A stretch of DNA of 19,215 nucleotides from Chloroflexota bacterium (lineage in GTDB: Bacteria; Chloroflexota; Anaerolineae; Anaerolineales; Villigracilaceae): contig JAKAMM010000005.1 of assembly GCA_021812905.1 (NCBI GenBank), forward strand, positions 1 through 19,215, written 5' to 3'. The notes beneath the pieces are model-generated. The model had not been told where the DNA came from. It was given only the letters and a program-made list of their open reading frames with translations, and ran no database searches. The translations under genes were made by a program, and so were the position numbers. Positions 1,195 through 16,188 of the stretch are shown here, piece by piece (positions within the stretch are counted from its first letter, which is position 1; the number at the start of each line of letters is the position of its first letter).

Positions 1195-2235
1195 ATGAAA
1201 CGCATCCTCTACTTTCTACTCACCATCTTTCTTCTTTCCTCCTGCGCGCCGAAACCATCCGGCCCGCAGACTCTGACCGTGATGACTCACGACTCTTTTG
1301 CCGCAACCGATACGGTCATCAAGGCTTTCGAGCAGGCCAACAATGCCAAGGTCACTTTCATCAAAAGCGGCGACGCGGGCGCGGCCTTGAACAAGGCCAT
1401 CCTTTCCAAAGACGCGCCGCTGGCCGACGTGTTCTACGGCGTGGACAATACATTTTTATCTCGCGCGCTTGAAGCAAATATTTACGAGCCGTACGATTCA
1501 CCTGCGCTCAAAAATATCCCTGCTGATTTTCAACTGGACACAACTCACCAGGCCCTGCCAGTAGATCAAAGCTATGTGTGTCCCGTCTATGACAAGGCTT
1601 ATTTTGCATCGCACAACTTGCCCGTGCCCCAGAGTCTTGAAGATCTGACCAAGCCGGAATACAAAGGTTTGATAGCAATGGAAAACCCTGCCACATCGTC
1701 TCCGGGTCTCGTTTTCCTGCTTGCCACCATCAAACATTTCGGTGATCCGAATTATCTCGGCTTTTGGAAAAACTTGCGTCAGAACGGCCTCGTGGTTGTG
1801 GACGGTTGGGAGACTGCTTACTACACCAACTTTAGCGGCTCGTCTGGCAAGGGGCCTCAGCCCATCGTGATCTCGTATGCGACCGACCCGGCGGCCGAAG
1901 TAATGAATGCGCAGACTCCTCCGGCGGATTCCCCGGTCGGTTCCATTCTTGGACCCGATACCTGCTTCCGCCAAATTGAATTTGTCGGCATCCTCAAAGG
2001 GACCAAACAACGCGCCCTCGCCGAAAAATTCGTGGACTTCATGCTGGGCGCGCAATTCCAGGCCGACATGCCCGCGCAGATGTACGTGCTTCCGGTCGTA
2101 CCCAACATCACCCTGCCCGACGCGTTCGCGAAGTACGCGCAGATTCCATCCCAGCCCGCCACGCTTTCTCCCGATGAAATTTCAAAGAATCGCGACGCGT
2201 GGATTCAGGCCTGGACTGACGCGGTATTGCATTAA
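1195..2235 (+). CDS. thiB: Thiamine-type ABC transporter substrate-binding lipoprotein
   Basis: The 346-residue extracytoplasmic solute-binding protein starts with a lipoprotein signal: Lys-Arg, a hydrophobic stretch and the lipobox LSSC with Cys17 as the lipidation site. The mature part begins with QTLTVMTHDSFAA and continues with KAFEQANNAKVTFIKSGDAGAALNKAIL and DVFYGVDNTFLSRAL. This is the pattern of the ThiB/TbpA branch of the iron- and thiamine-binding family; ThiB proteins typically show such DVxxGxDN and WxxAYYTNF segments (here GWETAYYTNF). Context is decisive: it follows the TPP riboswitch and thiN and precedes the permease and ATPase genes. It likely captures thiamine, possibly also its phosphates. 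The ribosome site is weak (gaaagg), which fits coupling to thiN 14 bp upstream. Confidence 0.92.
   Translation: MKRILYFLLTIFLLSSCAPKPSGPQTLTVMTHDSFAATDTVIKAFEQANNAKVTFIKSGDAGAALNKAILSKDAPLADVFYGVDNTFLSRALEANIYEPYDSPALKNIPADFQLDTTHQALPVDQSYVCPVYDKAYFASHNLPVPQSLEDLTKPEYKGLIAMENPATSSPGLVFLLATIKHFGDPNYLGFWKNLRQNGLVVVDGWETAYYTNFSGSSGKGPQPIVISYATDPAAEVMNAQTPPADSPVGSILGPDTCFRQIEFVGILKGTKQRALAEKFVDFMLGAQFQADMPAQMYVLPVVPNITLPDAFAKYAQIPSQPATLSPDEISKNRDAWIQAWTDAVLH

Positions 2236-13108: not shown

Positions 13109-13112
<4 letters not shown>
12000..13112 (+). CDS. hypD: Hydrogenase maturation iron-sulfur protein HypD
   Basis: A 370-residue scaffold on which the Fe(CN)2CO group is assembled, together with HypC and HypE. 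Conserved cysteines are visible: Cys34 in [10 protein letters not shown], Cys62 and Cys65 in HGPGCPVC, and a C-terminal group ([30 protein letters not shown]) that includes the ligands of the 4Fe-4S cluster. [10 protein letters not shown] is also typical. The start overlaps the hypC stop and the stop overlaps the hypE start, both as ATGA, so the three genes are translationally coupled. Length is normal. Confidence 0.97.
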
Positions 13113-14173
<1,061 letters not shown>

Positions 14174-14261
14174 TTCCGAACAAATGGAGATTGACGACGG
14201 AGTTGCTGCCTGGGAGAAGTACGCAGTGAAAAGAAAACAAAGATCCTCTAGAATTAAACCA

Positions 14262-14287
14262 GAGTGCCATCCGAAAGGATGGCACTC
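14262..14287 (-). terminator. 11-bp hairpin, probable terminator (possibly bidirectional)
   Basis: Perfect arms gagtgccatcc (14262-14272) and ggatggcactc (14277-14287). On the minus strand the loop is TTTC and the tail is T-rich (tggtttaattc). The same CC-TTTC-GG loop occurs in the sense direction of the terminator at 16199-16227, which favours the minus-strand reading. On the plus strand it is a GAAA tetraloop without a T run, 88 bp after the hypE stop. Confidence 0.65.
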
Positions 14288-14332
14288 GTGGGCGCTGTGG
14301 CTTCCCGAAGGTGCAGGTGAACTTCCTGCCTG

Positions 14333-14389
14333 TTACTTGAGGAGGGATGCCACAGCGCTGGGTTTGATACTACTATCCATGTTAGACAT
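14333..14389 (-). CDS. Putative 18-residue peptide
   Basis: The ORF reads MSNMDSSIKPSAVASLLK. It is preceded by AAAGGAGG (14401-14394), five bases before the ATG, a near-perfect match to the 16S rRNA 3' end and one of the strongest ribosome sites in this window. It lies inside a transcript with its own promoter and terminator-like hairpin. It has no membrane span and no cysteine. It is not recognised. It could be a functional microprotein, a peptide-type precursor, or a leader whose translation controls the downstream stem. No modifying enzyme is adjacent. Real translation is inferred from the ribosome site alone. Confidence 0.5.
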   Translation of the reverse strand: MSNMDSSIKPSAVASLLK

Positions 14390-14448
14390 CACCTCCTCCT
14401 TTCATTAGGATGGCTTTGAGTTGTTGATCCGCCCTGAACAATACCGAG

Positions 14449-14477
14449 AGTATCACATAGCTTGAATTGGATGTCAA
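14449..14477 (-). promoter_or_regulatory. Minus-strand promoter of the small transcript
   Basis: A perfect -35 TTGACA (14477-14472), a 17-bp spacer and GATACT (14454-14449) preceded by TGt, giving an extended -10. It points away from the DUF4173 gene and towards the 18-codon ORF. Confidence 0.65.
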
Positions 14478-14478
14478 T

Positions 14479-14498
14479 AGGCGTATTTAGGCGTATTT
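14479..14498. promoter_or_regulatory. Two perfect 10-bp direct repeats abutting the -35 box
   Basis: AGGCGTATTT occurs twice without a gap (14479-14488 and 14489-14498), one base from the -35 box of the minus-strand promoter. The 10-bp period is one DNA turn, so a dimeric activator could bind both on the same face, as OmpR/PhoB-type regulators do. It could equally act on the plus-strand gene starting at 14614. Confidence 0.5.
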
Positions 14499-14613
14499 AT
14501 CTGCCATTAATTTGCAATGCCACTGTTTGAACACGAAAAAACATGATAGCCTTTGAGAGACTCCGAAAGCGCCACTCTGCTATCCTGCGGGAAATTTGTT
14601 GAGGAGATGATCG

Positions 14614-16188
14614 ATGAAGAAAAACCCGAACCTGCTCTGGATCATTACCATTGCTCTTGGCTGGCTGTTTGATTTTCTCTTTTGGAAGAGACCCGCCGGA
14701 ATCAACTTCACGATCTTTACCTTATTGTGTCTCGCGGGCGGCTTCTTCCTTTTGTGGAGGGATGAAAAGCACGCGGCACGCGGGACCCTGTGGCTGATTC
14801 CGCTCATCTTGTTTTTCGACGCTGTGACCTTTATCCGAGCTGAACCGCTGACGATTTTGCTGGCCGCAGTGTTCACACTCTTTCTGATGGCAGTCGTTGC
14901 CATGACCTACCTCGGCGGACGCTGGTTCATGTACAGCCTCTCGGATTATGTTTCCGGCTTTTTCAAATTAATAGCCAGCATGATGGCGAGGCCGTTGACT
15001 TTCAATGCTGAAATAAAACGCGAACAAGCCGAGAATGGGACGACTATGCCGAAACGAAATCTTTGGCCGGTGGTACGCGGCATCGTCATCTCATTGCCTG
15101 TGCTGGCAATCTTCGCCGCCCTGTTGGCCTCCGCCGACGCCATCTTCAGCCAGCAACTCGACGTGTTCATAAAACTCTTCAAGCTGGAGAACTTGCCCGA
15201 ATACATTTTCCGGTTTATCTACATTCTCATCGGCGCGTATTTGCTGGCTGGAGTCTTTCTCCACGCCGCCACACAAAGCAAGGACGAGAAACTGATTGGC
15301 GAAGATAAACCGCTGATTAGTCAACTGCTTGGCTTTACCGAGTCCGCGATTGTGCTGGGCAGTGTGACCGTTTTGTTTGTAGCCTTTGTCTTCATCCAGT
15401 TCCGATATTTCTTCGGCGGTCAGTCCAACATTCACATCGACGGCTACACCTACTCTGAATACGCACGGCGCGGATTTGGCGAGTTGGTGGCAGTCGCCTT
15501 CTTCAGCTTGCTCATGATCCTCGGACTGGGCGCGATTACCCGTCGAGAGAATGAAGCGCAGCGCCGTGCTTATTCTGGATTGAACGTCGCCATCGTCGTG
15601 TTAGTCATGGTTATGCTCGTGTCAGCTTATCAGCGCCTGAATCTCTATGAGGCCGCTTATGGCTTTTCCCGCCTGCGGACTTATACCCACGTGGCGCTCA
15701 TCTGGATTGGACTTTTGCTTGGCGCAGTTGTTGTGTTGGAGATCCTGCGGCGTGAGCGTGTCTTTGCTTTTGCGATGTTGATCGCATCTTTAGGTTTTGC
15801 AGCTTCGTTGAGCGTGATGAACGTGGATGGTTTCATCGTGAAACAAAATGTAGCCCGTGCCATGCAAGGCGATGGATTGGATGTGCCGTATTTGGTTTCG
15901 CTTTCAAGCGATACAGTGCCTGTTTTGGTAGGTGAATTTAAAGATCAATCGTTGCCGGGTTTGACTCATGATGCTGTTGGAGCAGTTTTGGTCTGCCGCC
16001 TACATTTTCCTTCAACCGATTTGGATAAAGATTGGCGCTCATTCACTTTATCCAAATGGATGGAGAAGAATGCGCTAAAAAGTATTCAGGATGATTTGAG
16101 CGGCTATCGGGTTACCAAGCCCGAGGGGCTTCTGCAAATGACCACTCCGGGTAACGTGTTCTATAAATGTTATCAAAATCAGTATTAA
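14614..16188 (+). CDS. DUF4173/DUF4153 family multi-span membrane protein
   Basis: A 524-residue protein with about eleven or twelve hydrophobic spans, then a soluble C-terminal part of about 110 residues. Recognisable segments are the loop LGGRWFMYSLSDYVSGFF, the membrane segment FVAFVFIQFRYFFGG and the strongly conserved TYSEYARRGFGELVAVAFFS, which mark the DUF4173 (DUF4153-like) family. Function of the family is not known; it is sometimes near sensory or envelope genes. A GAGGAG ribosome site lies upstream of ATG 14614. No plus-strand promoter was convincingly seen in the 115 bp before it. The C-terminal region (about residue 420 onward, VARAMQGDGLDVPYLVSLSSD) appears extracytoplasmic or cytoplasmic, undetermined. 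The gene ends at a clear terminator. Confidence 0.8.
   Translation: MKKNPNLLWIITIALGWLFDFLFWKRPAGINFTIFTLLCLAGGFFLLWRDEKHAARGTLWLIPLILFFDAVTFIRAEPLTILLAAVFTLFLMAVVAMTYLGGRWFMYSLSDYVSGFFKLIASMMARPLTFNAEIKREQAENGTTMPKRNLWPVVRGIVISLPVLAIFAALLASADAIFSQQLDVFIKLFKLENLPEYIFRFIYILIGAYLLAGVFLHAATQSKDEKLIGEDKPLISQLLGFTESAIVLGSVTVLFVAFVFIQFRYFFGGQSNIHIDGYTYSEYARRGFGELVAVAFFSLLMILGLGAITRRENEAQRRAYSGLNVAIVVLVMVMLVSAYQRLNLYEAAYGFSRLRTYTHVALIWIGLLLGAVVVLEILRRERVFAFAMLIASLGFAASLSVMNVDGFIVKQNVARAMQGDGLDVPYLVSLSSDTVPVLVGEFKDQSLPGLTHDAVGAVLVCRLHFPSTDLDKDWRSFTLSKWMEKNALKSIQDDLSGYRVTKPEGLLQMTTPGNVFYKCYQNQY

Follow-up and report, generated by a model that had tools for sequence, protein, structure and literature searches.

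Genomic context of the candidate RNA gene

The window, that is the whole 19,215-nucleotide stretch of Chloroflexota DNA analysed here, carries a gene cluster that we take to be hyp (hydrogenase maturation), its genes being named from their translations. The last gene of this presumed cluster, an AIR-synthase/HypE-like gene assigned by blastp clustering (13109-14173, plus strand), is separated by a 440-bp gap from a DUF4153 gene (14614-16188, plus strand), and our finding lies on the minus strand of this gap. Here a probable RNA of ~190 nt (14254-14442, the 5′ end estimated from the position of the -10 element) has the DUF4153 gene as its upstream neighbour and is antisense to the last gene of the upstream operon; the elements that a preliminary description had listed for 14252-14498 of the minus strand are all present. 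Elsewhere in the window, a TPP riboswitch (RF00059, 405-511, plus strand, 66.5 bits) is closely followed by the gene for thiamin pyrophosphokinase and those of an ABC transporter set.

Upstream of the RNA stands a candidate promoter of the extended -10 type, TTGACA-17-TGtGATACT (14449-14477, minus strand; 10/12 matches), in which TTGACA (14477-14472) is followed by a 17-nt spacer and by a TG before GATACT (14454-14449). Three promoter-like sites occur on the two strands of 14100-14700, versus 0.5 in shuffles, two of them weak and on the plus strand. This promoter, already noted in the preliminary description, recurs among relatives: 75 of 88 homologues have an upstream promoter-like site that scores 9/12 or better, versus 14 of 430 control stretches. 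The two perfect 10-bp direct repeats reported alongside it are likewise present in the window, as a tandem of TAAATACGCC (14499-14490 and 14489-14480, minus strand), but do not stand as a conserved control region, as a regular-expression search for perfect 9-11-bp tandems in the 100 nt upstream found one in the window only (0 of the 87 other homologues). We rejected these repeats as operators because they are not conserved; particular to the window, they are probably not part of the element.

Distribution across the Chloroflexota

Whole-genome searches found homologues in 26 of 30 sister genomes (E ≤ 1.3e-11); among the remainder one matched at E 0.066 and three gave no match, two of which (G005 and G011) were still negative in a deeper search. 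A synteny route was tried and dropped: in 74 other hypE loci, blastn with the element as query gave nothing better than E 2, and in the whole genomes behind 30 of those loci the homologues sit elsewhere. Alignment A1 comprised the window and 26 loci, leaving out L202 (a partial copy lacking the SD), L221 (E 0.066), and L223 and L224 (the same places as L217 and L219). The covariance model built from it, R1, matches the window at 14414-14254 with 147.6 bits, the window being itself part of that alignment. The partial copy L202, in genome G021, is a second copy beside the complete copy L222.

Within the class, R1 matched 197 of 396 genomes with one match in each, a lower bound because eight candidates were scored per genome; a deeper search brought out matches at E ≤ 0.01 (the weakest at 0.007) in 7 of 17 ‘negative’ class genomes. 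Across the phylum, a second model, R2, matched 112 and a third, R3, 174 of 400 genomes at E ≤ 0.001, a few genomes having two or three matches to one or the other. Control searches with R2 at the same threshold gave 0 of 118 genomes in one set and, in the phylum of a Thermogutta MAG, 1 of 119 at 28.9 bits, while with R3 the phylum of a Deltaproteobacteria MAG gave 13 matching genomes of 99 at E ≤ 0.001, none of them above 30.6 bits. Since the E-values of R3 are unreliable, only its matches of at least 40 bits were counted, and with cut-offs placed above the control-phyla scores (30 bits for R2, 96 genomes; 40 bits for R3, 112 genomes) the union comes to ~128 of 400 phylum genomes.

The 88 homologues compared below form alignment A2, a subset of the listed class places: the window, seven A1 loci, 20 of 29 new class loci and 60 further places, nine new class loci from genomes already in A1 being left out. 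Twenty distant homologues were drawn from the 112 phylum matches of R2. When viral contigs were scanned for a 14-mer that spans P1 and part of its loop, at least 120 stretches were reported; the result was uninformative, and these loci were not used.

The preliminary description recognised no family for this RNA, and the Rfam searches agree with it: at gathering thresholds, Rfam 15 gave no match on the element in the window and 18 divergent loci, and relaxed searches (E ≤ 10 for the window, E ≤ 1 for 12 distant loci) gave sub-threshold matches only, among them one to CC2171 (22.9 of 75 bits) that lies across the L325 element on the opposite strand. At another distant homologue, L317, a 5S rRNA-like match that narrowly misses its gathering score (1229-1342, minus strand; 35.3 of 38 bits) is convergent to the element.

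Two co-varying stems

The RNA is predicted to fold at -79.3 kcal/mol, compared with -57.3 ± 4.4 kcal/mol for shuffled sequences (z -4.97; 0/200 shuffles as good), and its fold contains the two strong hairpins that had been described, the last one terminator-like. The first, P1, is a 10-bp stem between a 5′ arm, GCGCTGTGGC (14349-14358, minus strand), and a 3′ arm, GCCACAGCGC (14292-14301, minus strand); the second is a terminator hairpin with a short U tract, TGGTTTAA (14255-14287, minus strand), whose stem (14287-14262) has 11 pairs. Covariation, which the preliminary description had proposed as a check, is found in both. Over the 88 homologues, two-sided changes occur in eight of nine modelled pairs of P1, with 100% of cells paired, and in all 11 modelled pairs of the terminator; taken together, 99.5% of cells are standard pairs and 19 of 20 pairs show two-sided changes, and sliding the partner by 1-3 columns lowers stem pairing to 37-55%. 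The 20 distant homologues likewise have 97.4% of cells paired and two-sided changes in 19 of 20 pairs. Both alignments were fitted to the model and are thereby biased toward structure, but the margin is still large.

The P1 loop of the window holds an extra hairpin insert (14305-14332, minus strand), also present in L196, L202 and L240. Short stretches of this insert match weakly elsewhere in several genomes (query 169-199), and it is perhaps a small dispersed repeat. Such matches are what might lead one to regard the whole feature as a chance hairpin or dispersed repeat rather than a gene; the covariation of the stems contradicts this, as do the single match per genome and the conservation of promoter and frame, and we find the idea hardly credible.

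A mini-ORF with a conserved frame

The preliminary description had listed an 18-codon ORF, before which an SD, AAAGGAGGAGG, lies at 14402-14392 and recurs in homologues. That ORF is present and its frame is conserved, but its start probably lies elsewhere. Read from the first ATG (14389-14387), which overlaps the SD, the ORF encodes MSNMDSSIKPSAVASLLK (14333-14389, minus strand); read from the second, it encodes the 15 residues MDSSIKPSAVASLLK (14333-14380, minus strand), with a TAA stop at 14335-14333. The SD-overlapping codon shares the frame of the conserved start in 65 of the 88 homologues and departs from it in 23, and for this reason we reject the first ATG and prefer the 15-codon ORF (14380-14333), whose start is likely the true one.

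Over the 88 homologues the start codon is ATG in 85 and GTG in three, and it lies 7-12 nt 3′ of GGAGG in every one. In 87 of the 88 the ORF has 15-20 codons, varies in length by threes and ends in the P1 region: its start stands 20, 23, 26 or 29 nt from P1, and its stop begins 13, 16, 19 or 22 nt past the P1 5′ arm, which places the stop within the P1 loop in 83 and in the first bases of the P1 3′ arm in four. The one exception, L293, has a broken frame. Among the distant homologues, 19 of 20 have an ORF of 14-22 codons, the stop being lost in L321. The overlap between ORF and long stem, a further point of the preliminary description, is supported, the P1 5′ arm lying inside a frame-conserved mini-ORF. 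Together these patterns are strong evidence that the frame is read. They also bear on the suggestion that this is a purely structural non-coding RNA with the ORF as a by-product, toward which the conservation of P1 and loop nucleotides beyond that of the amino acids would point; a start-to-P1 length that changes in threes and a stop confined to four positions (87/88) speak against it, as does the in-frame bias of AGT codons described below, and we regard it as highly improbable.

The peptide itself has left a fainter trace. For 40 nearest pairs, pN/pS comes to 0.73 in the codons ahead of P1, 0.57 across P1 and the anti-SD, and 0.78 beyond them; the frame is kept, and amino-acid identity is only weakly constrained. 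Because of this weak constraint, ‘peptide gene’ may be the wrong emphasis: of the peptide-coding regulatory RNA first described, an RNA gene with an in-frame ORF stands, whereas the stress on the peptide may not. The alternative would be a micro-protein gene whose product is the peptide and whose mRNA silences itself by SD masking until needed, in the manner of type I toxin mRNAs. Conservation of frame and stop in 87 of 88 homologues is consistent with this, and the SD of the aapA3 toxin mRNA is indeed masked in this way, by one anti-SD upstream and another within the ORF (PMC6733600). Against it stand the weak constraint on amino acids (pN/pS 0.57-0.78), a shared AVAS core that coincides with P1 and the anti-SD, the single copy per genome in 197 of 197 matching genomes, and the absence of a hydrophobic set among the 87 peptides (mean GRAVY -0.04, maximum 0.84, hydrophobicity here serving as a proxy for membrane activity). 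On balance we consider a micro-protein gene unlikely.

Enrichment of Ser-AGU codons

The part of the mini-ORF before P1 (14380-14359 in the window, minus strand) is where Ser-AGU codons are enriched. Across homologues, 165 of the 526 codons before P1 encode Ser and 137 (26%) are AGT, whereas among the neighbouring genes (53,560 codons) AGT makes up 0.53% of all codons and 10.7% of Ser codons; Ser-AGU is thus ~49 times commoner before P1 than in neighbouring genes. The signal follows the reading frame, as AGT occurs 138 times in frame and three times out of frame in the mini-ORFs; the corresponding count for the distant set (22 in frame, 10 other) was made from the last candidate start in some rows, and we set it aside. 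Serine starvation in B. subtilis does not slow the Ser codon AGU, and a comparable ranking is stated for E. coli (PMC3862929), which counts against a simple serine-starvation trap as the cause of this strong enrichment.

Variable gene neighbourhoods

The genes that flank the element differ widely from locus to locus. Downstream genes at 87 loci fall into 41 clusters, 38 genes being co-directional with the RNA and 49 opposed, and upstream genes at the same loci fall into 56 clusters; the neighbours include rhodanese, glucan phosphorylase, phosphofructokinase, homoserine dehydrogenase, AIR-synthase-like, HNH, MgtE and photolyase genes, and the DUF4153 gene is common to 16 of 88 loci, the window included. 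Because the neighbours and their orientation vary, we interpret the RNA as a free-standing gene and not a leader. At 10 of 60 loci, tRNA genes stand within ~2.5 kb of the RNA, those for His and Gln among them and mostly as a His-Gln-Phe-Gly-Ala-Leu cluster (L267, L269, L275, L278, L279, L283, L287, L289, L293 and L304), a proximity that is probably the synteny of one lineage.

Some groups do have a co-directional gene within ~190 nt (homoserine dehydrogenase at nine loci, AIR-synthase-like at seven), and, with an ORF that precedes a terminator and is enriched in AGU, they raise the question whether the element is a leader or attenuator that serves the gene downstream, in which case Ser-AGU would be the regulatory codons. 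We judge this very unlikely: the next gene is opposed at 49 of 87 loci and belongs to any of 41 clusters, the RNA of the window is antisense to the last gene of the upstream operon, and AGU is the very Ser codon left unslowed by serine starvation in B. subtilis (PMC3862929).

Complementarity between the SD and the mini-ORF

The SD/start region, GCCATCC...AAAGGAGGAGGTGATG (14387-14414, minus strand), has a counterpart within the mini-ORF itself. At the start of the P1 loop, an anti-SD segment, CATCCCTCCTC (14339-14349, minus strand), can form 11 pairs with GAGGAGG-U-GAUG (14398-14387), the U being bulged. The corresponding ORF segment in the P1 loop reads CAUCCCUCCUC in the window and GCAUCACCUCC in many homologues, the latter being the complement of GGAGGUGAUGC; this segment also resembles the 3′ tail of 16S rRNA.

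When SD and anti-SD partners were swapped among homologues, the native energies summed to -1689 kcal/mol against a permuted mean of -1578 kcal/mol, and 0/2000 permutations were as good. The informative position, which is A or G on the side of the SD region and U, C or, rarely, A on that of the loop, is paired in 87 of 88 homologues, again with 0/2000 as good, and SD position 5 is paired in 48 of 88 in the ungapped register (1/2000 as good), while the outermost pair forms in 62 of 88, which does not exceed chance (545/2000), and the other positions are invariant or weaker. Clear covariation is seen at one position only, because the SD hardly varies, and the permutation tests ignore relatedness, related sequences inflating them. 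In the distant homologues the SD/start complementarity is more stable than the shuffle mean in 19 of 19 computed cases (L333, for which there is no duplex value, was judged by eye); distant groups differ in geometry, and there the P1 5′ arm itself can serve as the anti-SD.

In isolation, the segment that spans SD and anti-SD folds into the SD:anti-SD helix (-21.7 kcal/mol). In a pseudoknot-free fold of the full RNA, P1 wins (-76.8 kcal/mol, compared with -64.3 kcal/mol when the SD:anti-SD helix is forced), and masking in the finished RNA would therefore need a pseudoknot, the only form in which P1 and the SD:anti-SD helix can coexist in these models. An upstream segment, GCCAUCCU (GCYAUCC across homologues), may also pair with the SD, although the near-invariance of the SD leaves no covariation to see. 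A pairing between the upstream GCCATCC and the terminator was considered and dropped, since by eye it is not kept where terminators differ.

A C-rich loop so strongly conserved beside a proven stem, in a free-standing gene with varying neighbours, could also belong to a trans-acting small RNA, in which the anti-SD-like loop would repress other mRNAs and the ORF would tune its exposure. Pairing with the RNA's own SD also explains the conservation of the loop, and we hold this interpretation to be decidedly unlikely.

A proposed translation-gated RNA switch

Building on the RNA gene, stems, reading frame, stop position, SD:anti-SD complementarity and variable neighbours that comparison of the homologues has shown, we propose that the element is a stand-alone RNA gene of an uncatalogued Chloroflexota family and acts as a translation-gated RNA switch; from sequence comparison we would give this reading a probability of roughly 55%. 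A strong promoter would produce an RNA with a strong SD and an ORF of 15-20 codons rich in Ser-AGU, and the far part of that ORF would be an anti-SD able to pair with the RNA's own SD/start region, this segment lying in the P1 loop or, in distant relatives, in the P1 5′ arm. In a closed state the SD would be masked, and an open state would be held by ribosomes: judging from the stop position, a ribosome at the stop codon would cover the anti-SD and so leave the SD free for the next ribosome.

Several parts of this model reach beyond the alignments. The RNA is presumably made and translated, and two RNA states would exist. Selection appears to act on translation itself more than on the peptide sequence, and we favour an output that would work in trans or govern the fate of the RNA itself, because no gene is linked to the RNA. 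As it matches no catalogued RNA family, the RNA looks like an undescribed genetic switch. The preliminary observation is confirmed and was understated, the conservation of ORF, stem and promoter in relatives that it had looked to being found for all three, and its interpretation is partly supported.

A bolder version of the translation-gated switch, which we offer tentatively and with the odds against it, is a phylum-wide free-standing translation sensor, in which translating the Ser-AGU-rich mini-ORF, and not the peptide, would set the fold of an RNA read out in trans. Competition of the in-ORF anti-SD for the SD would be how translation sets the fold; for example, ribosomes pausing early in the ORF would leave a free anti-SD loop to repress other mRNAs.

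Comparison with known systems

A conserved RNA gene without an Rfam match, found across much of a large and little-studied phylum, invites comparison with RNAs described elsewhere. The searched parts of the open-licence PMC literature, including parts of PMC11109978, PMC2864571, PMC6733600, PMC5521070 and PMC3862929, hold no description of it. The aapA/IsoA type I toxin mRNAs of Helicobacter are likewise short stand-alone mRNAs, in which an anti-SD upstream and a second one inside the ORF mask the SD (PMC6733600), masking that is here indicated by complementarity and covariation only. Unlike those systems, the present RNA has an ORF of 15-20 rather than 30 codons, peptides that are not hydrophobic, and one match per genome across a class. 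On the plus strand, from which an antisense antitoxin RNA would come, 14100-14700 has the two weak promoter-like sites noted above. The hok mRNA is of the same kind as those of aapA/IsoA.

SgrS/SgrT, SR1/SR1P and VcdRP are dual-function small RNAs, each a stand-alone RNA with a small ORF. The RNA described here is like them in this and, judged by sequence, in having its own promoter and terminator, and frame conservation in 87 of 88 homologues points to a translated small ORF; it differs in that the ORF lies inside a regulatory stem and that its amino acids are weakly constrained. VcdRP combines base-pairing with a 29-residue protein (PMC8672173). The cyanobacterial Downstream-peptide motif (RF01704) also joins an RNA structure to a conserved short ORF whose indels come in threes (PMC2864571), but there the structure is in the 5′ UTR, whereas here it overlaps and follows the ORF. 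With the ORF in frame and its amino acids weakly constrained, selection for the act of translating becomes testable, and the presence of SD and anti-SD within one short ORF makes clean compensatory tests possible.

Leader-peptide attenuators share with this RNA a short ORF with a one-codon run (here AGT, 137/526 codons before P1), alternative RNA folds and a terminator, and differ from it in that the 87 loci lack a conserved co-directional downstream gene. If the translation sensor suggested above is real, it would act much like an attenuator, but with no downstream gene attached to it.
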